This document shows, piece after piece, positions 14,489 through 42,732 of a stretch of DNA of 64,000 nt. The stretch is from Boletus sp. NGJ. Lineage: Eukaryota; Basidiomycota; Agaricomycetes; Boletales; Boletaceae. The translations under genes were made by a program, and so were the position numbers. The notes below the pieces were generated by a model. That model was not told where the DNA came from and did no database searches. It was given only the letters and a program-made list of their open reading frames with translations. The first letter of the stretch is position 1; each line of letters begins with the position of its first letter. The DNA lies in assembly GCA_019096195.1 (NCBI GenBank), contig JAGTXK010000127.1, positions 1-64,000 on the forward strand, written 5' to 3'.

Positions 14489-15710
14489 TGGGCTTATATG
14501 GTTTCGTGACACTTTATAACATCTTGTAACCTTCTATTTTGTGAATTATTCCCCATGGTACAGGGCACGCTGCCAAAAAAACTGCATAAGTATAGCGAGA
14601 CCGCGATGGCGGTGTATATTGCACACTGAATGAGTTCAAGATTGATCTCACTGTGGTCCTGTATACCACATGACGCCCATGATAGCGGCTCCCTCCGCTT
14701 CGAAACCGGTGTCCTTCCTCTCATCCGTGGCTTGTGTTCCGCCAAAAGACAAGAGACGACAATCACGTCCCTTGTATGGTCGTTCTCTGGCTTGAGAGCA
14801 ATGAATGCGTCGTAGATGATGCGTTTTCAATCTTCTACTCATTCATGGGATTTCGAAAAACCATGCAATCGCTCTGGAGTGGTCATGCAACTAGTAGGCG
14901 TTTGTCAACTGGGCCCCGGCTATTGAGACGCGCATCATCGTCAGCACCAACCGAAAGCTGTCCGACAAAGCTTTCTCTCCATTCGAACCGTTTGCCACCC
15001 TCTTCAAACGAGAACGGCCCTGAAATGATTGACCTTATTAACAAAGACTGTGACTCACAAGGGGCGACAACATTGGTGCTTCGAGCTAATCACCGGGATT
15101 AATAGGATACACCGGGAAAAGTGATTTGATCTGGTCGGAAGGTCTTGTGCTCAGTGGTGGCGAGAAGCAGATATCCTCCGTGGTCTGGCGTCACCAAGCA
15201 GACGGAGTGTGGTTTTCTTTACATCGTCAATGTCAGTGTTTCCGCCGGACGCAGCGGGGATGCTAGGGTCCACCAGGGGTGAGTTTGGAATCGGTGAGAT
15301 GTTCCATTTCTCGGTATGCTAGTGGCTCTGAATCAGATAGACGCCAGGGGTCATTGAAGTCTGAAGTCTGAATCGGACCAAGGCTGTACTATTGCAACCG
15401 AAACACAAATGCGGCGCGCCAGCGATGTATGATGAGTTGCGCTCGCATTGCGACTGTATAGTTCATGATGAAGAGCTGAAGATTTATGGAACGAATATAT
15501 TTTTGAGGACAAGTCCAAATCTGGACATATCCCTTGGAGTCGCCGCTTCAAAGCTGCCTGCGATATCAACGACAACTTTACTTTCCATCGTCGCCGTGCA
15601 CAGCGACGGCCAAGGAGACTCGTTCCTTTCCTTGTTGTGCGCCAACGTGCTTCAAGTACGCTATCAATTTACTTTTACTACTCACCCACTCCTAGGATCC
15701 ACCCTCCACC
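14489..15710. other. Intergenic, no gene seen
   Basis: About 1.2 kb between copy B and the EH-domain scaffold gene. It presumably contains the terminator of one and the promoter of the other. No repeat or conserved frame was found. Confidence 0.5.
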
Positions 15711-18700
15711 ATGTCCCAGTGGGGCCAGCCGGGATTTCAGTATCCCATGCAAACTGGCTTTCCTGGCCAGCAACCCCAGCAACAGTTTCACCCCAGTCAA
15801 CAGTTGAACCCCGCTGCTCAGTTCCAGCAACCTCAGAGTAGCTTTGGCGCTCAGCCAGGTGCACCAGGATTGGGCGCAGGGTTCGGTAGTCTTGCCCCGC
15901 AGTCAACAGGATTTCCCGGCCCACGTCCGCAAGGATTTCAGCAACCTCAGCAACCTGGATTCCCAGGCGCACCAGGCGTCGGCGCGAGCTTCTTGCAAGC
16001 ACAACCCACAGGTTTTCCGGGTGCTCAATCCAGCTTTCAGCAACGCGCTCCACCACCACCGGTTCCGCCTCTTCCCGCTTCCTATCAGCAGAACGCACCA
16101 CCACCCCCGCCCCCCGTACCCCAACAGCAGCCCGGTTTCTTGAATACAAACCAGAGTCGCCTAGGCGGGCCCTCGGCGCCTTCCTTTGGTTTGGCAAGCT
16201 TGGTCACGCAGCCGACTGGTGTTGGGCTTCTATCACAACCTACTGGTTTTGCAGGGCCTTCCCCGGCCCCATTGGTACCTCAGGTTACTGGTTTCGTTGA
16301 TCCTCGGCTTCAAATGATGTCCAGCTCATTTATGCCTGTTAATATTTCCGCTCCATATACATCCGGAGGGGTACCACAGCTCGCACCGCTCCCGCAGCAG
16401 CAGCTCGGTGGTCTTTCATTGCAGCAGAGCTTCCAGCAGCACAATCAAGCTCACGGAAGGGGGACAGCACCTAAAATTCCATGGGCGTTGAGCAAGGCGG
16501 AAAAGAAACAATACGATCAGATATTCAGAGCTTGGGATGCGCAAGGAACAGGGTTCATCAGCGGTCAGGTCTTTGGACAAAGTGGTCTAGATAGGAACGA
16601 CCTCGCCAGGATTTGGTCAGTCTTGACTCTTTTCTATCATAGGGTTTTGGATGTCTGATCGAATTCATTGACCTGCCGCAGGACGCTGGCCGATGCTGAT
16701 AATCGGGGTAAACTAAATTTAGCAGAGTTTCATGTTGCTATGGGTTTGATTTATCGACGTGCGTATGAAACTTTACCGATTCCCCATTTAACATGATCCA
16801 CGTGCTCATTGAAATTCGATCATTATCAGGACTCAATGGGAACGATATCCCAGATGAACTTCCTGCCGAGCTTATCCCTCCTTCCTCTCGAGACCTCGAT
16901 ACCTCTGTCAATTTCCTTAAAGACATCCTCAAGAACGATACTCGCGCACGTTCTCCATTGGGGCTTGATACTCCGATCTCGCGTCTGAAAGAACGATCTT
17001 TCACCTCTTCGTCCTCCTTTACGCAGCAAGGCGGGCGGCAAGATGCGACTGTCTACAAACACGAAGACGCCGAGCCCCCAGGTGGATTTTACCAACCCCG
17101 CAATCGTCACGTGGACCGGAGCGCCATTCGATCGCGCGTGGACGACACGAGTCCTGCGACGTCAGACTTGTCCTCCATCAAGAGACAGTTGTTGAACACG
17201 CAGAAAATACTGGACGATACGTTGGCGAGCGAGCAATCTTCTGATGCACTGGACAGAGAACTCGAAGATTTGCGGTATAGGATTACCCGATTACAAGAAG
17301 ACATCGAGTACGTTTCAAAAGGTCCGAGGACGGCAGCCAAAGACGAGGAAAGGAGGCGTCTTGAAAGAGAACATGCAAGGTTAATGCATGAGGAAGTGCC
17401 GGCGCTCGAGAAGAAAATGGAAGAAAGAGAAAGAAGGAGAGAAAGGGAGAAGCGGGAGTGGACGCGTGATCGGGATCGAAGGAATGAGCGATTTGGACGG
17501 TTCGGTGGTGATGACAGCGGGAGGTACTCACCAGCGTCACGATACCGAGAGGATGAAGAACGACCGTACTCTAGGGGCGCATCAAGGTACGATCGAGACG
17601 ACAGGGACTATGATAGGTCGTATAGCGATGGGGATAGAGATCGCAACCGCGACGCTGACCGTGACCGGGATCGACATCTTGAATTGTCCACTGCTACACG
17701 CATGCCGCCGCCGCCGCCGCCGCCCCAGCCTGCCAGCAGCACCAGTCAACCGCCACTGCCAGCACCAGCACCAGCACCTACTCGTTCTCCTGCACCCGGG
17801 ATAAAGAACATGACTCCCGAAGAGCGACGAGCCTTTTATCGTGCCGAAGGTCAACGTCGCTTGGAGTCCCGTATGAAAGCCCTTGGCGTCGTCGTTCCAT
17901 CGTCTGCTTCTGTTGCTTCCCCTACACTTGACACCACTATCGAGGACCGTCTCGCCCAAGAGAAGAAGGAAGCGGAAGAGAAAGTTCGCGAAGCAGAGAG
18001 GCAGGCCGAAGAGCGCGAAAAGCAAAGGAAGGAAAAGCTTGAGGCTGAGAAGGCGTTAAAGGGAGGCAAGTCCTCTTCGCCGACGCCCACAACTACGGCG
18101 CCTCCACCAGCCCCAGCGCCGGTGCCGACGCCGACTGTCAAGGCCGCCCTATCTAAGTCTCGTGCACCTGCACCACCCCCGCCGCGGAAGGGAGCTGTTC
18201 CTCGTACCCCGGCTCTTCCTACTCCGGCTCAGGCACCGACTCCCCTAGCTCCACGTGCTCCTCCAGCGCCTACTCCTGTTATTCGTGCACCGGTACCTCC
18301 TACACCCGCGCCAGCACCCCCCGCCCCCACTGTACTCGAGGAAGACCCCGCAGACGCCGCACTCAAAGCACGGGAAGAAGCTCTGCGCAAGAGGCGCGAA
18401 GGGCATGCGGCTCTCCTTCGCAAGCTTGAGGAGGAGGAAGAGGAAGCGCGAAAAGGCTGAGGAAGCGTATCGGGAACGCAAGAACCAATTCTTGACTGTT
18501 AAACCTTCTCCGACAGTCAGTCCAACCTCGACCGTATCGAAGTCGCCTGTTCCCCCTCCCCCCTCCCTCCCCCTTCAGCACTGTCGGTGACTTCATCCGT
18601 ACAAGCGGGGGAGGAAGCGGCTCCGCCACCGCCACCGCCACCGCCACCACCACCACCACCTCCTTCAGCTCCTGTTGCCGAGAAACCTAGTAACAATCCC

Positions 18701-20118
18701 TTTAGTCGTTTGATGAAGGGAGGCGGAGGCTCTACTCCCGCTACCCCTCCAACAGCCACAGCAAACGGAACCAGCAATCCTTTCTTCCTTACCCAGATTG
18801 CACCACCGGCACCACCACCACCCAAAAGCCCGGGTATCCCACCACCAGTTAAAACAACATATCACACTGCCCCGAGGGATAGCGACGACGACTGGGACGA
18901 TGTCATGGAGAAAGAGGAGGATGGGAGCAGCGACGAAGAACTTGGGACGAGGGATACACGAATGGGTCTCGCGCAGCAGCTTTTCGGTACTTTGTTACCC
19001 ACACGTCCCCAGTCGGCTGGACCGGCCCCATCTTCAGCTAACCCCGTCCCACCTGCTGCTCCGGCACCACCGCCTCCACCTTCTGCACCGCCTACATCAA
19101 CAGCTTCGTCTGCGCCGATTGCCGCTCCAGCACCAACAGGTGATCGGGGTGCGTTGCTGAACTCCATTCAGGGAGGTACTCGGCTGAGAAAGACTGTCAC
19201 AAATGATCGTAGTGGCGCTGCCACATCTGGAAGGGTCATTGGCGATAGTAATACACGACCCCTCCACGTGAACGATTTTGCTCGTCCACCATCACCACGT
19301 ACCGTTCCTTCTCCGGCGAGCTTTACAGTGTCTCCCCCGCCTGCGGAGCCTCTGATGGGGCAGAGTGACTCCTTTGGTCATGGAAAGAAGGAATCTGTGG
19401 ATTGGTACAATGCGCTGGCTGCGGACGTAAATAAGCGGGGGGTGGACCATCTTCCTGTTACTGCAGAGGAAGCCGAGGAAGAGCAGGCTGATGCCAGTGT
19501 GGTTCCTGCCATCCAAGTCTCAGAGCATGGTCCAGATAGTGGGTTTGAACTCATGGCCGATGTTGATCTCTCTACTGGTGCGTACATGTCATCTGTAAGC
19601 GGTAATCAATACATTGATGTTGGGTCTCTTATTTTAGAGCTCCGCGTCAGATCTTTGTATCCCTACGAAGGACAGCGAACTGAGGATCTAGGTGAGAATG
19701 TTTCCGTCTTCATATGTGGCTTTGTCACTGAAGATTTGAGTGCCAATTTGCAGACTTTGATACAAACACGATCATCGTTGCTCATCCATCCAGGTCTGGT
19801 GGCGATTGGTGGTACGGTACTACAGCCAAGGATGGAAAAGCTGGTTTCTTCCCTAGGACCTACGTTCAGGAAGTGGAGCAAGGTGCGCCGAGCCGCTTAT
19901 CTTTGCTTTGTCAGGTTGTTGCTCGTGATGACTGACCAAATACAGTTCACGCAACGGCACTGTACACCTACGAGAGTACGAACGCGGACGAGCTTGCATT
20001 TAATGAAGGCGACACGCTTACCATTGTCGACTGTTCTGAAACGGATTGGTGGAAAGTTGAACGTGATGGTCTCGTGTTCATCGTGCCTGCCGCGTACCTG
20101 GAAGTGACTGAGGGTTAG
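15711..20118 (+). CDS. EH / coiled-coil / WH2 / double-SH3 endocytic scaffold (Pan1/intersectin-like)
   Basis: Cortical adaptor linking endocytic coat proteins to actin assembly. Exon 1 (15711-16615) encodes a Gln/Pro/Gly-rich N-terminus with PTGF/QTGF repeats, then an EH domain (about residues 255-345). That domain continues through exons 16682-16758 and 16830 onward and includes the calcium-binding-type loop DADNRGKLNLAEF. Next come a long charged coiled coil, an RD-rich stretch, proline-rich tracts (including a run of about 14 Pro near 18625-18662), a WH2 actin-binding motif (RGALLNSIQGGTRLRKT, about 19146-19196) and two SH3 domains. SH3-1 spans two exons (RSLYPYEGQRTEDL; GGDWWYGTTAKDG; FFPRTYV); SH3-2 has ALYTYESTNADELAF, TDWWKVERDG and VPAAYLEV. 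The frame shifts by one base near 18455 (AAAAGG), inside EEEEARK/AEEAYRERK; sequence error or a real lesion. The stop TAG at 20116 overlaps a splice-donor-like GTTAGT, so the gene may continue into the DH-PH unit. Confidence 0.85.
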
Positions 20119-20344
20119 TGGATTTCCTTACCACGAAAAAGACACTCCTCTTGAGTTCCTCTTACCTTTTCTTACGTGCTGGGGTGGATATAGACTGAAA
20201 TATATCTTTTTTCCTTCGTCTTTTGCTATCATCCCCTCGTCCTCATCGTTGGTTGCATGTTATGGATGCCATCGTACCCGTTCCCTCGCGCCTCGTTTCT
20301 TTGTTTTATTGAACTCAAACGCCACACACCACAAAAAAATCGTC

Positions 20345-23206
20345 ATGTCTTGCACTGAAACACTGAAAAAATTTCGTTCGAATACCAATACGAATTCAAA
20401 AATTCTACGTTTTTGTTCTTTGTTCCTACGACGTGATTTTGATTGCGATTTGGGCGTAGACCTCGATTTGGACGTCCGTAGGCACGCTCAGTTAGGTTTC
20501 GGACAGGACCGAGGGCACGCGGTCCAGGCCGACGATGCAGATCGTGATGGTGACAGTGATCATCACGAGAGGGTGACCGATGTTTACAGCACACCTTATA
20601 CTTCCCCCCAACACACGCGTCAACTAAAAGCACCAGAGTTGCATGGGACTTCGTCCATGGACGGAGACGAGGACGAAGAGGATGCGTACTATTCGCTGGA
20701 CGAAGGGGATAGTACATCCGAGTTGGAGCACGATCCTGAAGGTGAGCGGGAGACGGCGGCGCGCGAGATCGAGCGACGGCGGGTGCTGGAAGCGGCTGGG
20801 TTAGTTGTTAGTCCGCTTGCGGACGGGGAGGACAAAAGGCTACGTCCACCTCTCTTTGTCCCATCCGATATCGTCGTCAGGGAACATAAGCACGAAGATG
20901 AGCATCACGTCCCATCCGCGGCTGCGCTGTGTACGATCACGCGCTCAAATTCGGGCTCGGGCACGTGTTCCGTAGGGGCTCTTTCCGAGTCTCCAGGACG
21001 AAAGCGGCGTCCGGCGCCTGCAGTCCCACCACGCGGATTATCGCATCTCTTGACAAAGGACCTCCCGTCAATTCCAACGCTCTATTTACCAGAGACAGAT
21101 TCGCCGGACCTGTTGTTCGGATCTTTTGAAACCACCGCCTCTGGCAAGGACAACGACGCTGAGGGGGAAGAGGATGGGGAGGTGATGCTTGGAACGGGCC
21201 ACTTCAAGATGAGGTCGGATGGGAGTATCATTCATCCGGACGACGCGTTTGAGCGGTACGAGACGTTCAAAAAGAGGCTAGCGTCGCATAGTCATGGACA
21301 TTGTCATTCGCCTCTGTTTCCAAACTCGATCTCGGCATCGACGAGTAGGATGTCGATGTCGTCGTTCGATACCGGGTCATTGGCACCGACGTCGCCTCCG
21401 AAGTCACCCGTTGCATCGCTGACGCCCTCGCTCCGGGAACGGGAACGAGAACGAGAAGGTGGAGGGAGTGGGGAGAGTCGCGCGTCGCAGTTTCTCAGTT
21501 TTCTCGGACGCCATACGCGTGCAGGGACACCAGAAAACCCTGAGCGCGATCGAAAACTCGTCATCTCTGGACCAATCTTACACGCGCAGACGCCCTCGCC
21601 AGTGTCTGCGCCATTGACCAGCGGGGAGGGTGGTCCGACGAGAGAGGACAGCCCGGTATTTGGATCCTCCTGGGCGAGTCTGGTCAATCGGTCTGCGTTG
21701 GAGGGGATCCCAAAGGAGGAGCGGAAGCGCCAGGAGGCGATCTTTGAGCTGATCTCTACCGAGGGGGATTACGTGCGGGATGTCCAACTGATCGTCGAGG
21801 TACGTGGCTTTTGGTCGTGTTGTTGCCGATGCAGATCCCCGCATGACGTGTGAGGGATACTGCGGGACTGACGATTGTACCTGCAGCTTTTTTATTCTCG
21901 TTTGATGGCGGTGTTGGACGAAAAAGCCACTGCGATGATCTTTTCAAATATCGAAGACATATTGCTCACGAACACGGTGAGGAGGGGATGTTTGCTCTTT
22001 TGGGTTGGTCGTGATATTCAATCCTTGAGCTGACTCGCTTTGAAGACGTTCCTTTCGACTCTCGAAGAACGCCAGCGGGACTGTCGCCTCTATATCGACC
22101 GTATTGGTGACTTGTTAGAAAAACATATGCCGAACATGGGCGTATACCTCGTACGCCGCTGCTCGTCCTTGTTTTATGGCTGCACCCAATGCGGTCGCCC
22201 CCGTTTGCAGAACTACTGTGTCAATCAAGCAAACGCTGGAAAGGTCCTCCAGCAAATGCGGGAGAGTAATCCCACTCTGGCTGCGCAGCTGCAGGTGTGT
22301 TGTTCGTCTTGATTTGTGACGCACGCGTGGAGCTGAGGCCATTCCGCTGGAGAACCTTCGGGAAGACCCATCAGCACGGAATCTGGACTTGTCGAGCTAC
22401 CTGCTTGTACCTAGTATGTTCCCTAACTCCCTAAAAGATATTCAGAACACTGTTGGCTGACGTGCTGCCGCTTACTCGCTCTTGTGACCCATGTTCATAG
22501 TGCAACGTCTTACCCGATACCCTTTGCTCATCCGTCAGATCCTGCGTTACACGGATCCTAGTTCGTCACCATCCGGAGCTATTGACCCTTCAGCATCGTC
22601 GTCATCTACGTCTTGGGGTGATATTGCCGAAAGACAGTCCATATCCGCGGCGCTCCAAGCGGCCGAAAAGATCCTCGAAGACGTGAACGAGACGATCCGA
22701 GATCGAGAAGGGACAGAACGGCTGGAAGAGATCAGCCGCGCATTATGGATCGGACAAGGTAGGCTCGATTTGACGGCACCGACGCGGCACCTCGGTCCAC
22801 GTAAACTTGTCAAAGAGGGCGTGTTGAACAAGGCAAAGAGTGGGCGCAAGTTGCGAGTGTTCTTGTGTAACGATATCCTGGTGCTCGTGGACGAGGCTGA
22901 TAAGGGGTTATATCGCGTGGTGAGTTTGTTTCCCGTTTGTAGTGCCCTGTGTGATCCATCGATGTTCGGTATGTGACTGATCGAAATGTGGGTTGGTCTC
23001 AGCCGATTCCGGTGAACGAAATTCAGATCAAACCTTCGAGGAGCGACCGAGAAGACCCACTTATTCGAATCCATTTGGCATACCCACGTGGGGGAGACAC
23101 GATCCTATTGCGTGCATCCAACGTCCGGGAAGCAAAAGCGTGGGAAGGGGCCATCTTGGATGTTGGCAGGAAAGCTCGGGAGATGATTAGAAATGTGGTA
23201 CGGTAA
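20345..23206 (+). CDS. RhoGEF (DH) plus PH domain protein; possibly 3' half of the upstream scaffold
   Basis: Guanine-nucleotide exchange factor for Rho-type GTPases. 20345 is the first in-frame ATG; the open frame upstream has no other. A long acidic/Ser-rich region comes first (with APAVPPRGL and repeated RERERE), then the DH domain. DH starts at EERKRQEAIFELISTEGDYV (about 21718-21777) and continues over short exons: LFYSRLMAVLDEKA from 21887, TFLSTLEERQRDCRLYIDRI from 22046, and a later block with MQRLTRYPLLIRQI (the conserved DH helix, about 22500-22540). A PH domain follows (KEGVLNKAKSGRKLRVFLCNDIL; VNEIQIKPS; W-containing last helix AKAWEGAILDV), ending at 23206. The DH-PH order is typical of Dbl proteins and of the C-terminal half of long intersectins. 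It may be a separate gene or the continuation of the scaffold through a 382-bp intron (20114-20495). Confidence 0.85.
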
Positions 23207-23711
23207 CGTGGTGAGATGTAACCATGATGGTGACATGGCATAGACGGACGGACGGATGCATATATTTATTGTCGTTTTCGTTTGCTGACTTTTCTTGGGA
23301 CTGTATCTTTGTCTTGTTTGATGGTGATGTAGCATACAACTCAGCTTGGAGTATGTGATAGTATCCGACCGCAACAACTTTAGACATTTTCGGAGCTGCC
23401 TACAAAGGAGGAACCTAGATTAAAATCCATAGTAGTGGGCCTTAATTTATGAGAATTAGATGGATGATACTCATGCGCAATGAACGATTGGCCAGCTGCG
23501 GGCCGATGCATAGGATTTAATGTTGAATCAAGTGACCTCGTCCGCGACTTCCTCTTCGAAAACCCGGACCAGAGCGCACCCCAGCTGTTCATGTCGAAGG
23601 AGAATAACACATGTGGATGTTTCTCCCGCTGTTACTACTGCGCCAATGACATGTGACTACTAGTTTGTGTCAACGTACCGATGTGAGTCATGCGTTCGTC
23701 GACCGAGTCGT
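23207..23711. other. Convergent intergenic spacer
   Basis: About 500 bp between two converging genes (DH-PH and the inositol kinase). It should hold both terminators; no other feature seen. Confidence 0.5.
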
Positions 23712-24982
23712 TCAATCATTGGATTTTTCTACCTCTATGAATGCTGCCACTTCCTGCTTCCTGCGATCCACTAATCTTATCAACGTGTCCATTCCCGTCA
23801 AAACCCCCTGATCAGGGCCTTCCCCGGGCACAACTCGCGTGTGGGCGAAATCGATGAGGGAGATCGTGTACAAGCGGGGCTGTGGATCCGTACAAGAGCA
23901 AGAGGAGGACGTCTCGGTAGTACTGCCTGAAATGGACTCCATGATGATTTCCCCTTGTTCGTCGACTTCTACCTCGATCTGATCACTTTCGGTTTCCTCG
24001 TCCTCTTCGGTTTCCACCTCCTCGAGACTGTCAGGTCCTCCGCCACGACCGGATGCAGTAATAGCTCTTTCCCAGTCTCCTTCGTAGACGATCAGGACGC
24101 TACCACCGACTATCCTCACATGTGCGCCAGAGAGGGATATACGGAGATCGGTGAGTGACCCATGGAGGGATGTGAGGAGGGTAAGAAGTGTATCTGCAGG
24201 GAGGCCTGTGTTGAGATTCGATGGGGGTGAGGTTTCAAGATTGGCGTTGTTCAAGGGAAGCGAGATCGAGCAAGGAAAAAAGTTCCCAATCCCTTCCTGT
24301 AGTTGTTCCGCATTCAAACTATACCCGTATGCTTTCCCATATACGATTGGATCAGGAGAGTGATTTGAATATACCTATCGGAATGAATGCGTGACATCTC
24401 GGAGCTATTTACAAAGGAAAGGCTCACTTGAAAGCCGGTCAACCTCACGCCGGTTTGTAGAGTGGTTGTTTCTGCCGCTTTCTTAATCATGCGCGCCTTT
24501 TTTTCTTCCGAAGCATCGTCGTCGTAGAGTACCGTGCCAAGTTTTACATCCAGGACGCAGGGCTTGCGATAGCCGTACAGCAAGTTCTGGAGAACAAGGC
24601 TTTGGGAGGGTATATTCGAGGGAGCAGTATCATTGATGTTATCGAGGGAGCAGGACGTATATGTACCCTCTAACTCTGGAGCAGGAATGATAACGGGCAC
24701 GACTCCCGCATCGATGTTATCGGTTGGATCGGCGATCTTTCCCTCTAGACTCAACAAGCCAAAGAATTTGGGTATCCAAGCCTTGAGCGTGTGTAATCCC
24801 GTGGAGGGGTCAACGATGTCTCTGACGAACTGGTAAAAAGCAATCTCGCGCGGCTGGGTGGGTTTGAGTAGAAGCGATTCGTCTTCTGTGACGTGTACGC
24901 CTGCATGTCCGCCAACTTGTTGCGAGAGTGGTGTCGTAGGTGGGAGGGTGTGTGTACGCTTTGCCTTTGGATGGGCCGCCAT
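23712..24982 (-). CDS. Inositol polyphosphate kinase (Ipk2/Arg82-type multikinase)
   Basis: Phosphorylates inositol polyphosphates (family reaction: IP3 to IP4/IP5), feeding inositol pyrophosphate and nuclear signalling. Two exons: 24982-24428 and 24374-23712, joined by a 53-bp GT-AG intron in phase 0, giving 405 aa. The family signature PxxxDxKxG is intact as PCVLDVKLG (residues about 141-149). The N-terminal QVGGHAGV matches the usual QVAGH motif. GGSVLIVYEGDWE corresponds to the SSLL-type strand, and SLIDFAHTR (about residue 357) carries the catalytic Asp of the DFG-like IDF motif. An acidic insertion (EEVETEEDEETESD) lies between, as in yeast Arg82. The single intron and complete motifs indicate a functional gene. 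It converges on the DH-PH gene. Confidence 0.92.
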
Positions 24983-34579: not shown

Positions 34580-36853
34580 TTGAACGGTTGCGGGCGTCGC
34601 ACTTTTTACCGTTGTGGTCCTTCCAATAATAAGTGCACAGACCGTCCAAGACAAGGAATATGCGTCCTGTGCGCGGAATATATCAGACGTGCGTTCTGCG
34701 CAAAGTCGGTGAATGCATGGTTCACTGTTCAGACGTCCATCGGTCCAACTTATCGATCTGAATCTAGTCTGGCGTCCGGAATTTAGGCTTCAGCTAACGT
34801 TGCCGCGACTTCGGCTAGCTGTTAGTAGTGGGTACTCGTGCAACTGGAGCTGCAAGATTCGAGTTTCACCACAACGCAACCGTACATATACTAATCTTAT
34901 AGTTTGATAGTATCATTACATGAGCCTTCTATTCATTTTGAGCAAAAATGGAAATGGTGATTGGTAGCTGAAGAAATAGCAGCAGTGTATTAAAAACCCA
35001 GATCCGAGGGATCCCGCAACAGAACCACCCACAGGAAAATGGCATGTAGCTACCATCGGGATATTTTATTTTCGGGAGATTTACATTTAAATGACAGCGA
35101 GAATAAAATATATGAGGGGGGACACTGTGACCATGGATGAAATCGCGCTGTCGGCATGGTTCATTGACAGGCTCCGCCTCGGCATATTTACACTGGCGGC
35201 GTGGCAGCGTATCGTTCGCTCGCGGAGAAATGTTCCGGACTCAAAATGGCAGCTATGCCGTGTTGTGACGACGCAGTGGAACACTGCCGCTATTCCAGCC
35301 ACTCAACGAATCAGCCCCCGGAAATGCGAGCAAGTAACTTAGCTGAGACAGTTCTATAAGTGTTTATACCGTGCCGGTAGCAAACGGGTGAGTAGTTGAA
35401 GCGCTATCCTTAAATTTTATAAGCTTTAGGTTTTGCAACTCTATATCTGGTTGAATGATAGTATATCGCCAAAGTTCGGCAAGTGGATTGAAATCATGGA
35501 CGTTATTCCATTTTACTAGTACTGTGAGGACACGGTCCACGAGCGAGCGATACGATACTCACCCCTTCATCAGGGTCATCTGATGTAATGTTTATAATCG
35601 ATCGTCTATTATTAGCGCGCCGTGCAGGACATGAATCGAGTCAAGAGGGGAATAGAATAAAGCATGACCTGAGTACGTGTCCATGTCTTTGAGCAGTTCT
35701 GTTTCAAGCAACAGGAACTCTGCCTCCGGTTGCAAGCGCCGCTGAAGGATTTCATTTACACCCAATGGCGGGGAGGAAAGGAACAAGTGGCGGCATTGGA
35801 CACGATTAGGCGTCAATCGGGGAACGTTCGAAACGACTGATCTACATTAACGGATGTAGAGCGTAGAATAGCCGATGATGTCTGACAAGGTAAAGGGTAT
35901 CAGGATGACGATGCGAGCTTCGGCGTGTCCCAGATGTGATGTCCGCGGTCACGGTATTATCCACAGAAAGAAGGAACCGGTCTGAGATCAAGGTGAGCAC
36001 GCGCCACGAACACGTTGGAATTTTGGAAGCGATGCAACGTTCGAAATGGGCTGTCCAACTTGAACTGACTGTCCAGTGTCCACAACGCCTGAAACAGGTT
36101 AATTTGGTATCCCAAATACTACCACCGGATGTCACGGTAGCCACGCAAGGTGTTTTTATCCACGCAAACCATACTTAACCTCTCTGTTAACACTGAGCGG
36201 CCGCGAGATTTGCCACCTGCGTGATTTGTAAGGGTTGCACTTGCCCGTCAAGTTACATGGATTCGCTAGGTTGAGTGGATGGTTGTGCGCATGCCATCAG
36301 ATAGCGTCAATATTGTCGGGATAGTTGAATTCGCTGCAAACGAAAATCAGTTTGCCTTGCATTGTTTACATGCACGTGATCGCCACGGAGGTCCATATTG
36401 GTTGTTGTTTATACTTACTCAACACAATCATTGAGTCACTCATCGCGTGTTGCACTGGCAGGGGCTGTATGTAAGCCTGCCTCGTGTTCCCCAACCCGAA
36501 CCAGGCGAGCTCCGGGTTCTTGCTCTGCGTTGTTCCAACACCGTGTTGTGTCCCAGTAAAAAGGTGGGTCATCATCGCTGCGCCTGTCGACGAGTGGATG
36601 CTTACCTGCCGATGTCTGTACTTTGGAAATGACTCAATATCGAAACAGGGCGGAGATTTGTTTACTGTTCCTTGCTGCACCGCACGCAACGAGCTGCGCA
36701 GGACGTTTCCATTCTCATCTGTCGTCTTGATAATCGCAACGTTTCGTGCGCGAAGCTTGACCCCCCATTTCTCTATTTGCACGCATCAATCGATCGCAAG
36801 TAAATTGCGGATCGTTTTTATTGTGCAACAACGACGCAGACTGGTCTTTAAAT
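34580..36853. other. Intergenic, no supported gene
   Basis: About 2.3 kb. Short open frames only. A TTTAAATATG box immediately upstream of the next ATG (36854) may be its core promoter. Confidence 0.4.
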
Positions 36854-38305
36854 ATGTTGGCTACACACACCCTTTCGCTATCGCTTCACTCTTCACCTCC
36901 GACTGCGAGACCCTCCTTATTTTCGGGCTCTCGCCCAGCCCTCGCGGATTCGACCAACGTCAATTCGCGCTCGAACGCCTGCGGTCCTGGTTATCCAAAA
37001 GGCTCTGTCTACCCTACCTCCTCTGCCCGGACAGGTTGTGGCTGGAGCGATTTCGAATCTACCACTGGATACATCTCGACCTCGTGCCATTCTCGCCAAC
37101 CTCATGTGTCCTCTGCGCCTTCCCTGTTCCCGGTGGCTCAAAAAGCCCCGCCTACCGTATCCATTTCGCTTTCTGCAGCTTGCTCACAGAGTATCCTTGG
37201 AGAACGGTTTTGTGGCTCAAAGGTGCAGGGCTTGGAGCCGGACCTCCCGGATGTGAAAAGCGTCGTTCCATTCCCAATCACACCGTTGGATAGCGACACT
37301 GACGTGGTCATGCTCGATGGAACATGTGTTCCTTGTCCCGATGGACACTTGCCGTCCGCTGGCCAGGCTCCTCGCAAACGTCGCTCCGCGCATTCTTCCG
37401 TTTCTTCTTCACAAGGTAGTCTTGGAAAGAACGCAACACAAAAACGCCAGAGGAAAAGCAGGCGGCATGTAGCAGAACTCTGGGGGTTGGGTGTCGTCTA
37501 TCGAAGTATCTTGCGCGCTATCGAGGATCGCCAATCTATTGGAGAGCTAGACGCCTCCGATGGGTTACTGTCCGGGCTACGTGACTTTGATGCTATGGAT
37601 CGTGTGTTGGTCGAAAAGATACAGAAGAGATTGGCTGAAAATGGTTGCGTTGAGGGGCGGGCGCTGCCTAATCCATTACCACGGATATCATCCCCAAGTA
37701 TATCGGCGCCCTGTCTGACCCTCTCAGCGCCGAGCAGGAAGACCCCGGCAATCAAACCAGACTCATTTACCCTCCCATCGGAGTTGAACCCAAAATGGAA
37801 TGACACCCTCGACGGAACTACCACCTCTCCGCCAGCATCCAATGGAACCCCTCGTGCTTCATTACCGATCACTTCCCATTGCCTTATCCCATCCGCCAGG
37901 TCCACGTCTCACAGACGCTACGTTCATTTCGAGATTCCACAACGACCCTGTCAAGGTCAACCTCATCCGAGCATTCCTCGACGCTCACCCTCCCCTCCAG
38001 CACGAACAGGGACAGTCCCCACTAACGTACAAATGCTCACGTTGACGATGCCGCAGCTGGTGGCCGCCCTTACACTTGCTTATCGTGAGCGGGGTAGGCT
38101 GCGGTTGCGGGGACGGACGTATAAGGTTACGGAATGCGGGAATAATGCTGACCGTTCCGTGCCCTACCAGGCTGTACCGTGTAGCGATGGTGATGCGATC
38201 CACAACAAGGAAAGAGTGCACCAGTCATTCACGCCACGCGTGAGACTGTCGAGCACCCCGGAAAGGAAGTCGCCGCTGTCTCGCGTCGCGTATGCTGAGA
38301 GCTGA
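36854..38305 (+). CDS. Hypothetical Ser/Pro-rich protein, 483 aa
   Basis: Not recognised. One long open frame with ATG at 36854 and stop at 38305, interrupted by no obvious intron. Composition is Ser/Pro/Thr/Arg-rich, so most of it is probably disordered. A basic cluster RKRRSAHSS ... KRQRKSRRHVAELWG (about residues 185-220) looks like a nuclear signal, and is followed by a predicted helical part (VVYRSILRAIEDRQSIGELD; RVLVEKIQKRLAENG). A second ordered segment near the C-terminus reads LTMPQLVAALTLAYRERGRL. The length of the open frame against five stop-rich alternatives argues for a real gene, but the start region (LATHTLSLSLHSSP) is low-complexity and conservation is unknown. Confidence 0.5.
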   Translation: MLATHTLSLSLHSSPPTARPSLFSGSRPALADSTNVNSRSNACGPGYPKGSVYPTSSARTGCGWSDFESTTGYISTSCHSRQPHVSSAPSLFPVAQKAPPTVSISLSAACSQSILGERFCGSKVQGLEPDLPDVKSVVPFPITPLDSDTDVVMLDGTCVPCPDGHLPSAGQAPRKRRSAHSSVSSSQGSLGKNATQKRQRKSRRHVAELWGLGVVYRSILRAIEDRQSIGELDASDGLLSGLRDFDAMDRVLVEKIQKRLAENGCVEGRALPNPLPRISSPSISAPCLTLSAPSRKTPAIKPDSFTLPSELNPKWNDTLDGTTTSPPASNGTPRASLPITSHCLIPSARSTSHRRYVHFEIPQRPCQGQPHPSIPRRSPSPPARTGTVPTNVQMLTLTMPQLVAALTLAYRERGRLRLRGRTYKVTECGNNADRSVPYQAVPCSDGDAIHNKERVHQSFTPRVRLSSTPERKSPLSRVAYAES

Positions 38306-39232
38306 GCTCTCGCGTCCATGCGGTGTCCCGGGCCATGGCTTGCGTTTCAAGCGACTAGGTTTCTGAAACCGTTGACCTATTCAAGGGCTACGCTTTATGG
38401 GAACGCCCATGGTTGCTCTGATATTGACTACTGTATACACGCACGCTGCCGATACTTTCACACTTTAATCGCTCTCTTCAGTTGTTGACAACTATCTTTT
38501 AATGTAGATTGATTCTACTGTCAATGGTTTCCATCTCTCGTTGCACTAATTACGTTGCACGCTTGACTCATCCACGACTTTATGATACTGTGTATCGATT
38601 AGTCTTGTCGTGCTACTTCATATCCGCAATCATTACAATGAGTCGGATGACAGGTGTGTTGAGATGAACTTTCAGGCCTCAGGCCTCAGTCCCCAAATTC
38701 AAAATCCACTCGTTCGTCCCTTGCGTGTCCATTCACTTTTTCTCATCTTCGTCCACGGGCCAACAATAGCCAAGGGACAAATCATCTGCCGGCGCGTAAA
38801 ACTCATTGTAGCATTTGTTGTATACTTGATCATCTCGCCCTCATTCTCCTTTGATTATTTCTCTTCATAATCATTGTTCTTCGATGTACAGATGGCGGGA
38901 CTTGGACAAATTGTTGATGTTGATGTCACGTGAGCGATAATCCTCGCGCGAGGAACTCGCACACGGTGACTTAACTCACTTAACCTACTTTCGTTCAACC
39001 AGACCAACTGACGTGCTGGCAGTGAGCGGAACCGTTGCCCACCGAACGCAAGTCCACGACAAGCTACAGCGCATGTACGTCTCAGGAACTGGCCTAATAT
39101 CGACTTTGACTGCACCATCCAGGCCAACAGACCAGTGAGCTGATCCTTTACCCCGAGGTTCAGTACATGAATGTTTCAAAATGACAGAAACTGACTACGA
39201 GACGACTTTGTCGAGGCAACTTTGAAGCAATC
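38306..39232. other. Intergenic with candidate short 5' exons
   Basis: A possible small spliced frame starts at the ATG at 38892. Exon 38892-38929 (donor GTGAGC) joins exon 39003 onward (acceptor CCAG), then a donor GTACGT and acceptor CCAG follow. It encodes MAGLGQIVDVDVT-PTDVLAV and more, about 41 residues if it stops at TGA near 39136. It may be a tiny gene or 5' exons of the CM1 gene downstream. The splice signals are good; the product is not recognised. The rest of the stretch shows nothing. Confidence 0.35.
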
Positions 39233-42200
39233 ATGTCAGCCGCACTCGATGCACGCGCCGACTCGTCCTCGCAATCCGCCATGACACTCCCTGATCTCTC
39301 CCTTGGTTCGCTTGTATCTGGCATCTCTACACCAGGTAGAAACCACAGGGTCCCTTCCATATCATCCCAAACGACCGCGCCGTCCTCAGCGCCGCTCTCT
39401 ACCCCTTCACCACCAGAACAAGTCCCCGTCAGCTTACGCAAACGGGTGGACGAGCCTGGATCTGCTCTGAGGCGACTAGCCGTCTCTGGCCATGAGGAGG
39501 GAGACGATATTGGGGACGGCGGCGACTTTTTGGACACCCCCGGACACAAATGGGGCGATGGCCCAGACACGCCTGTCGCGAACCGCAAACGTACACGAGC
39601 GACCCCGAGTGGTAACAAGGGCGTCACCCTCACGCTCCGCGATCAAGAAAAGGTGGTTTTTTTTTTCTTCTCATCCGTCCATGTTATGCATGTGATAACC
39701 TCATTGCGCCCCACTCAGCACATCGACAATCTCAAAAAGGAAAACTTCAACATCAAATTGCGCGTGCACTTTCTCGAAGAGCGATTGGCTCAACTCGCCC
39801 CTGACCAAGTCGACGCAGCCCTCAAACAAAATGTGTCCCTGAAAGTCGAGGTGCAGCAACGTGGTCTAGAACTCAAGAAACTCAAGCGACTTGTGCTCGA
39901 GCTCGAGCGTGAGTTGGAGCGTTCACAAAAGGAGCGTGGTACGGCAAGTTCGCGCGATAGGGAACGTGATCTCGAGGCGAAGCTGCAGGAACGCGAACGT
40001 GAAATTCGAGAACTACGGCGAGGGCGTGTATCTACTGCCGATGAAGATGTTCTGCGACGGGCCGAACTCAGAAGCGAGGAGCTCGAGGAAGAGTTGGATA
40101 ATGTCAGAGGGTTACTCGAAGACAACATGGAAGAGATCGAACGTCTCCGTGAGATCGTTGAGAAGCGTGGTGATGACTCTTTTGGTGGGCGAGGAGACAA
40201 CAGGCGCGAGCGGTGGCAGCGGAAGCTTGAGGAGCTCGAGGCCGAGAATGACGCTCTACTCGCTCGGATAGAGGACCAGAACGAGCTTCTCCTGAGGAAA
40301 GAAGACGAGAAAGAAGAACTAGCGGATGAGATCGCACAGCTTGGTTTGGAGATCGAGGACATTCAGCGAAGGAGAGAGGCAGAGTCGATTGAACGCAGCG
40401 AGAGCCGAGCCGAGGTGCTGGAAGCACGAGAAGAGCGGGAGACTGTGAAGGAGGGCCTCGATTCCGTGCGTGACAAGCTCGCTGCGACAATGATCGAGCT
40501 TTCACAAAGAGAAGACGAGATTGAAATGAAGAACAAGGAGATCGAGGACCTGATCGCTGAGCATGATCGGATTGTGGCGGTGGTCGAGGAAGAGTGGCGA
40601 GGAGAAGTCGAAGAGGCGCGTGGACACGTCGAGGAACTCCGCGATGTATATTTCTTTCAGACCAAGCATCCACCGACAACTGATTGCTTGTCATCCCTAG
40701 GCCCTTGCAGAACGGGAGACGGAGTCAAAGGAACTTCGTCTCAACATCTCCGAGCTCGAAGCAAACACCAATGAGCTCCATACCAAGTTCGAAGCCACCT
40801 TGCGACATCTCGAGAAAGAGGCAGACGAAAAGGACGCCGAGATCGAAGCCGCCAATCGAGAGATAGAGAAAACTGAGCGATCAAGTCTACTTGCTAGAAG
40901 AGGAGAACGACCGCATCAAGGAGGAAAGCGATCGCCTTCGTGAAGACGATGTTGTCGAGCGAGAAAGACTCGAAGCACTTGCAGCGGCTCTCAAGGAGGC
41001 GAGTTTAACAAACAGCACCAAGTTATCCGACTAACTTGCGCCACTCACAGAAAGTCAATACACTCAAGACGCAGCTTCAAGACCTGCAAGATCTCTATGA
41101 TCAAACTTGCCAAGACATTCTCGTTCACCGATCACGGCAAGAGGAATTGGCGCGCCATGTCGAGGATCTCGTTGAAGAAGTCAAGCACGAACGCGAGGAG
41201 AGGGAGCGCTTGGAACAGGAGCTCCTCAAAGTCGAGAAGGAGTATGACTCTCAGCTTCGCCATGAACGACGGAACCTCGAAATTAAAGAATCTGCCCTCC
41301 AATCTACACTTGACAGCCTTGCGAAGAACGAGACGCTCCTTGAACAGCGTCAGTCCGATATCAAAGCCGTGCAGGACGCACTTAGAACCAAGGAAGAAGA
41401 GTCGAAGAAGCTTGGCGATTCGCATACGACTGCGAAGTTCTCGCTCCACCTTGAAGTCGATCGTTTGAAACGTGATGTCCAGACGCTCGAGGATGCTCTC
41501 GCACGTGCACGTCAAGACATCGCGGCTCGTGAGGGCAACACGCGCGAACGTGATCTCACGATCGACAAACTGCACAACGAAGTTCGCGATCTGACCACGC
41601 GTCTCGGCAATCAGACCCAATCCCGTCTTCACCTCTCGGAAAAGTTCGATACTACCCAAACGAGCTTGAAGACTGCAGAGTCCGAGGTATCTACGTTGCG
41701 TGCGAAGGTTCAGGAACTCGAGGCACGGTTGGCAAAGGATCAAAAGTCACTGTTGAGCAGTGAGAGTCAATACCGTGACCAGCTGACTGAGCGTAACACG
41801 TTGTTGCTCACTATTTACCAGTACATGGACAAGATCCTTGGTGTGGACAAGACCCCGGTACGCTTTTCTTCACCTTCATCTCCATTATATCTCTCTTGAC
41901 ATGGCGTGTCCGCAGAAGAAAGGTGGTCAAGCTGAGACAAAGCCATTCACTAACTTTAGCGTCTTTCATGATAACCTCATCACACGTCTCAAAGCGCTCA
42001 GTCAGATACAACTAGACTTCGATAAACGCGTCAAGGAGGCCGAAGCGCGGTTCGCGGAAAAACTGACGGACATGCGGAAACAGCTCGACATGCGGTGGAA
42101 GCAGATCGATAAGTTTGAGACAAGCGTCAAGGCGTACGGCGATGCGAAGGCGACGTGGAGGCGCAAATATGTCATTAAAGAAGGCGAGCTGGAGGCGCTC

Positions 42201-42732
42201 AAGGTTCGTTGTGTTGTGGTGGAAGTTTCCCGTTTGCTGACCCAAGTCGGTAATGTTACAGGGCACCAACGCCGACCTCGTCCAGCAGATCGCGACCGCG
42301 AGACGTCCCGCACAAGGCGACTCGCAAGAGATACGGACGCTCCTGTCGCGCGCTGTGAATGCGGAGAAACGGCTGGTGGTGGCAAACAACCAGCTACTTC
42401 AGCATGAAGAGAAAATATCGACATTGAACCAGAAGACATCGACCGCGGACACCAAGTGGGAAGCGCGGGTGAAGGAGTATGAAACACGCTTGAAGGCTGC
42501 GGAAGAGAAATACAAGCGAGAGCGGCAAGGGAGCAAGGAACGGGTGCTCGAGCTCGAGACTCAGATCAAGTACGTGACCGCATCATCGCCTTTTCGTCGC
42601 TTTTTCATCTGTGCGGTTGTTTGTAGGAGTCTGGAGCGGCAGAATGAAATTGCCCAAAAGCGCAATGTACAATTGGACGCTGTCACGGAGAGCGCAAGGA
42701 CGAGCGGGAGTGGGAGAGGTCGTGATCGGTAA
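39233..42732 (+). CDS. CM1-motif coiled-coil protein (gamma-tubulin complex recruiter, Mto1/Pcp1-like)
   Basis: Recruits and activates gamma-tubulin complexes at spindle-pole bodies or other microtubule-organising centres (known for the centrosomin CM1 family). Exons: 39233-39652, 39719-40645, 40701-40998, 41051-41857, 41916-42203, 42262-42569 and 42627-42732; introns 52-66 bp. A Ser/Pro-rich N-terminus precedes the CM1 motif, which crosses the first intron (TLRDQEK + HIDNLKKENFNIKLRVHFLE, about residues 134-160). Roughly 850 residues of nearly unbroken coiled coil follow, about 1,050 aa in total. No PACT or MASC domain was recognised at the C-terminus, so the exact orthologue is open. Two oddities. 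The frame shifts by one base in an A-run at 40869-40872 (EIEK/LSDQVYLLEEEND). The intron at 40999-41050 appears to use a GC donor (GCGAGT). The last intron (57 bp) has no in-frame stop, so its retention would keep the frame. Confidence 0.85.

Follow-up and report, generated by a model that had tools for sequence, protein, structure and literature searches.

A putative long intersectin gene of Boletus sp. NGJ in which the short-form stop codon lies within a predicted splice donor

We analyzed a 64,000-nucleotide (nt) stretch of the Boletus sp. NGJ genome (contig JAGTXK010000127.1, positions 1 to 64,000; here, the window) for a candidate intersectin gene in which two protein forms could arise at a single junction. 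A scaffold unit with EH, WH2, and two SH3 domains ends at a TAG codon, which is itself embedded in a predicted splice donor, and is adjoined downstream by an exchange-factor unit (DH-PH) of intersectin type. The domain comparisons, together with a gene model built from this genome itself, suggest that the two units probably form one long intersectin gene, spliced through the stop-containing donor. All parts of this locus lie on the plus strand.

The junction and the two coding units

The reading frame of the second SH3 domain ends in LEVTEG followed by the stop TAG at 20116-20118 (codons GAG GGT TAG). The same letters can be read as a donor, G|GTTAGT, in which the exon ends with the G at 20113, the GT occupies 20114-20115, and the short-form stop makes up intron bases 3 to 5. 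This overlap had been proposed in an original prediction made from the letters of the DNA, and we recovered it at the same coordinates. Splicing from this donor to a TTAG acceptor ending at 20495, as was also proposed, does keep the frame: the 20113/20496 join removes 382 nt and reads ...YLEVTE-GFGQDRG.... An additional in-frame acceptor, a TAG ending at 20459, gives ...YLEVTE-DLDLDVRRHAQLGFGQ... and has the higher score (3.33 versus 1.25 for 20495). The DH-PH frame contains the ATG at 20345 from which a separate gene had been envisaged, and it is open upstream to 20108, including the whole spacer, so that it overlaps the SH3 frame. Because the SH3 and DH-PH frames are different frames, read-through of the stop cannot yield the fusion, and we ruled it out as a route. 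The junction region is present as a single copy in the genome.

Upstream of the junction, the scaffold unit has a single EH domain at 16488 to about 16897, with introns at 16616-16681 and 16759-16829 (Pfam EH, 2.5e-19, for the joined peptide). Its best match in PDB is ITSN1 (8.6e-15, 58.1 bits), with Eps15 near (5.1e-14, 55.6 bits), and the Pfam and PDB comparisons together place it with the intersectin/Eps15-type domains. A charged stretch behind the EH domain, judged by eye, is a candidate coiled coil between it and the SH3 domains. A WH2 actin-binding motif at 19133-19216 (Pfam WH2, 7.7e-12; residues 196-223 of the translated stretch 18548-19603) is located ahead of the SH3 domains, as for a Cin1-type intersectin. 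The end of the scaffold carries two SH3_9 stretches in the joined protein. Exons for both were called by a generalized hidden Markov model (GHMM) of this genome, which is described below. The first SH3 domain spans 19639-19882, made up of 19639-19691, where one predicted exon ends, and the next exon, 19754-19882; its upstream exon boundary is unsettled. The second SH3 domain, 19946-20113, is encoded by the exon with which the predicted short form would end (Pfam SH3, 3.5e-12, on 19936-20115).

Downstream of the junction, the predicted exon 20460-21799 opens with a low-complexity linker at 20460-21740, between SH3 and DH; a Pfam search of 20345-21799 at an E value of 0.01 returned no family. 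The DH (RhoGEF) domain runs from 21740 to about 22758, with introns at 21800-21886, 21977-22045, 22151-22210, 22295-22352, and 22414-22500. Once joined, it matches Pfam RhoGEF at 5.5e-41, and the RhoGEF match from the own-genome search also starts at 21740. The PH domain extends from about 22759 to 23206, with an intron at 22920-23002 and the stop at 23204-23206 (PH_13, 5.2e-8, on the unspliced stretch). The GHMM had called a further intron at 22759-22815, a stop-free 57 nt with GT..AG ends. We rejected this intron and treat the stretch as coding because it aligns with the LGPRK region of the intersectin PH domain; with it included, the match to ITSN2 improves from 133 to 159 bits.

With the DH-PH unit corrected in this way (362-amino-acid [aa] query), the seven best PDB sequences were all intersectin 1 or 2, at 1.4e-45 to 1.1e-33, two of the seven being engineered chimeras. 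The next family, ARHGEF16, followed at 9.2e-29. As a control, we compared five fragments, taken from the 20 other RhoGEF matches of this genome and 105-155 aa long versus 362 aa for the query. Other families scored above intersectin in PDB for three of them (L001, L003, and L004), and intersectin came first by less than 1 bit for the remaining two (L005, 1501-1815, plus strand; L006, 1501-1926, minus strand), so none showed a margin like that of the DH-PH unit. By sequence comparison, then, the DH-PH unit behind the scaffold is of intersectin type, as the original prediction had it, and the long-intersectin domain order that it proposed is likewise found here in the form of EH, WH2, two SH3, and DH-PH. 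That the scaffold has an intersectin layout and is followed directly, in order and on the same strand, by an intersectin DH-PH indicates that one long gene was ancestral. Searches of viral_contigs with a 55-aa SH3 query and of genome_contigs with an 85-aa DH query, which cover viral and prokaryotic contigs only, confirmed no relatives.

One gene or two

The GHMM was trained on 254 kb of this genome, namely 20 stretches, each of 10 kb, plus the window with 14501-24500 left out. Training yielded 91 genes that reach 300 nt or more, together with 377 introns, whose median length is 55 nt. The model is self-trained, except that the rate of GC donors was set by hand to 1.5%, since it drifted to 12% in self-training, and the long-intron mass was set by hand to 1%; re-decoding then gave 379 introns. 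All counts from this model cover genes with at least 300 nt of coding sequence, and the ends and starts used for synthetic pairs come from genes with at least 600 nt. Stops brought in by retention were counted over introns of genes with a predicted start (348 of the 379), gene starts where the first exon has at least 115 nt (52 genes), and flanks where these reach at least 150 nt (56 5' and 54 3' flanks).

On the left-out locus, the model predicted one gene at 15711-23206 that includes an intron at 20114-20459, whose donor ranks near the 60th percentile among predicted donors. This reading was ahead of the summed intergenic-spacer readings by 13.4 nats, and still by 4.6 nats at a long-intron mass of 1e-6; the best single path with two genes used ATG 20266 and an intron into 20460 rather than ATG 20345. 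Among 1200 synthetic pairs, built by joining predicted gene ends (54) to predicted starts (59) across a spacer equal in length to that of the locus, none looked so much like a fusion (0 reached 13.4 nats, 4 reached 10, and 215 scored 0 or more), a control that is partly circular because the same model called those ends and starts.

These results bear on whether the locus instead holds two adjacent genes, the ancestral long intersectin having been split and the DH-PH unit being expressed from the ATG at 20345-20347 by a promoter in the spacer. The C+T-rich spacer could indeed be a promoter or an untranslated region (UTR), and its 226 bp are an ordinary tandem distance, found or undercut in 29.5% of the 44 predicted pairs, a count that takes in small predictions. 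The context of the ATG is acceptable though low (a start score of 3.47, near the 11th percentile among 85 predicted starts). The coding signal, however, starts near 20438-20460 and not at this ATG: the 112 nt behind it (20348-20459) score -3.2, under all 52 measurable predicted gene starts, which were called by the same model. A spacer as intron-like as 20119-20344 occurred in 2.9% of 5000 synthetic spacers, in 2 of the 56 predicted 5' flanks, and in none of the 54 3' flanks. We consider a pair of genes unlikely.

A second alternative is that the frames are joined without the predicted intron, either because of an indel in the assembly close to 20108-20118 or by way of a 52-nt intron at 20104-20155, with the spacer being coding. 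The openness of the DH-PH frame back to 20108 is in keeping with this, as is a further break of frame within the scaffold. When 20108-20344 was shuffled by mononucleotides, 176 of 5000 shuffles likewise had no stop in the DH-PH frame. Readings that are coding at 20250, including the one with the 52-nt intron, came out about 12 nats lower, the indel itself being outside the model, and eleven blocks over 20108-20437 sum to a coding score of about -3.5. We rejected the 52-nt intron and hold this alternative as a whole to be very improbable.

The one-gene reading was also compared across acceptors. We scored 194 combinations of a donor (at 19960-20116) and an acceptor (at 20255-20759) that are in frame and span 20250. 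The 346-bp, phase 1, GT..TAG intron at 20114-20459, which is also the one on the best GHMM path, took 0.979 of the score-weighted total. The 382-bp intron at 20114-20495, though in frame, was second with 0.008; its acceptor fell 4.8 nats below 20459, and we did not keep it as first choice. The model thus makes 20459 the more likely acceptor, the intron 346 rather than 382 bp long, and the predicted long form at the junction ...IVPAAYLEVTE-DLDLDVRRHAQLGFGQDRG.... The original prediction is modified to this extent. Its view of an intersectin-type DH-PH unit reached from the scaffold through the stop-containing donor, as one gene, agrees with the own-genome model, and the intron is long for the locus, as it had stated, lying far above the 55-nt median; its acceptor at 20495 and the length that follows from it are the less likely choice.

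Several observations weigh against a single long gene spliced in this way. Of the 13.4-nat margin, about 13 nats reflect the intron-like, C+T-rich composition of 20120-20447, and 8.3 to 9.5 of these nats fall over 20119-20344, where strand-specific models of 5' and 3' flanks recover all but 2.7 nats; such pyrimidine-rich content could be common to a promoter or a 3' UTR. For a start at 20345 with a flank-aware spacer, the lead of one gene falls to 8.1 nats, and to 5.8 and 3.5 nats at long-intron masses of 0.001 and 0.0001 (values summed by hand from separate gene-model and flank-model results). The tandem distance, as noted, is one shared by many predicted pairs. The model, besides being self-trained with two hand-set parameters, called at least one false intron at this very locus (22759-22815). 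The intron itself, at 346 bp, is about six times the median predicted intron; 17 of 379 introns exceed 150 nt and 7 of 379 exceed 300 nt, all of these being predictions. Its acceptor is mediocre (3.33, against 3.35 for the 25th percentile of predicted acceptors), and the branch candidate is a weak one, TTGAT about 20 nt upstream of the acceptor. In the scaffold, the SH3 domains are not specific to intersectin: GRB2 and p47phox lead the PDB comparison, and an intersectin-2 SH3 is 22nd among the best 60 matches. We therefore set this comparison aside as a family identifier, as it singled out no family.

The scaffold, finally, has a frame break of its own at about 18448-18575, where the frame leaves and returns. 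One frame reads EEEARKG and then meets a stop, and AEEAYRERKNQFLTVKPSPTVS runs on in another up to a poly-C stretch. The model bridges the break with a GC-AG intron at 18448-18516, the donor of which scores poorly (-2.87); compensating assembly indels are the likelier explanation.

With these points weighed, we still regard one long intersectin gene as probable. That judgment is a joint one, since it takes in both a gene with a real short form and a gene whose intron is removed constitutively, the stop being incidental. Elsewhere in the window, the same model predicts a large gene at 36291-42732 (plus strand) with 12 exons and 4674 nt of coding sequence.

A possible switch between short and long forms

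The gene would have the layout of a basidiomycete-type (Cin1-like) intersectin: EH, coiled coil, WH2, SH3, SH3, linker, DH, and PH. The long form would result from removal of a phase 1 intron, most likely 20114-20459, whose donor lies just past the second SH3 domain. If the intron were retained, or if the transcript ended inside it, translation would stop immediately at TAG 20116-20118 and give a scaffold without the exchange factor, with an EH-coiled coil-WH2-SH3-SH3 layout like that of ITSN-S (the coiled coil being assigned by eye). We propose that the long form would place a Cdc42-type exchange factor at endocytic sites as part of a molecule that also bears WH2 and SH3 modules, and that the short form would scaffold without it.

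The stop of the short form is present in the sequence within what is predicted to be the donor of the long form. Of 82 predicted terminal stops, 4 overlap a donor scoring at least 4.9. Among 348 predicted introns whose frame is known, 42 would, if retained, complete a stop codon by their sixth base; in 63% of predicted introns, the first in-frame stop on retention falls within the intron itself. A stop in a donor is therefore uncommon but, alone, unremarkable, and it is by itself no proof of a functional isoform. The striking aspect is which two coding units this donor connects.

The same frequencies suit a gene in which the intron is always removed, the TAG is incidental, and retained transcripts are errors cleared by decay, so that there is no switch. 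This possibility is a branch within the one-gene reading and not a competitor to it, and all of the evidence for the fusion holds for it equally. Against it are the length of the intron, about six times the median, and its T-rich content, which would leave room for a 3' end; the position of the stop directly behind a complete SH3 domain; and the short and long isoforms reported for Cin1 and animal ITSN (PMC3645719). To look for a 3'-end signal within the intron, we considered the 5-mers in which 3' flanks are enriched, but their resolution was too weak for use. By analogy with these relatives, we give a real short form somewhat less than an even chance, and think a constitutive intron nearly as credible. 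That relatives make short and long forms was noted in the original prediction. The title of a 1998 paper by Guipponi reportedly bears out this parallel.

Both the Cryptococcus and the animal isoforms named in that prediction are described in PMC3645719. Cin1 has one EH, a coiled coil, WH2, two SH3, and DH-PH, with short and long isoforms, and homologs are present in other basidiomycetes (PMC3645719; PMC7324655); its domain set equals that predicted for the Boletus gene, although isoforms are reported for Cin1 and only predicted here. Cryptococcal intersectin transcripts are said to be alternatively spliced (PMC3925392). In human ITSN1, as predicted here, a DH-PH extension is what the long form adds to the short scaffold; human ITSN1 differs in having two EH, five SH3, and a C2 domain (PMC3645719), versus one EH and two SH3 here. 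It further differs in that its choice depends on whether exon 30 is included or skipped (PMC9519902), whereas here a single intron would be retained. The WH2 motif, which also sets the Boletus gene apart from human ITSN1, is described as a gain in an advanced group of fungi, and ITSN homologs as lost in ascomycetes (PMC4824007); both fit a basidiomycete gene. Of all parts of ITSN, the same source describes DH-PH as the most invariant, and it reports loss of C2 in some fungi.

Intron retention is the most common event in the mushroom Schizophyllum commune, where alternative splicing often alters domain content (PMC5034255), and the fungal SKI7/HBS1 and PTC7 genes, which encode unrelated proteins, each give two functional proteins by splicing (PMC3597508). 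The matches listed in our literature searches included no study of intersectin isoforms in an Agaricomycete. According to a 2013 review, the short and the long type of intersectin may both date from early in the family (PMC3645719). A speculative idea, which we consider improbable, is that the switch, with its donor over the stop behind the final SH3 domain, goes back to a single alternative splicing event that predates the animal-fungal split and is shared by human ITSN1, Cryptococcus Cin1, and this gene.

Cin1 mutants without the exchange-factor domain are reported to have no phenotype, and the long form may therefore be dispensable under the conditions tested; the same review asks why the exchange factor stays in Cin1 and not in other lower eukaryotes (PMC3645719). 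For that question, this locus offers a concrete junction, at which the same scaffold end, an adjoining intersectin DH-PH, and a stop codon in the donor come together. Loci such as this could be annotated as two genes.

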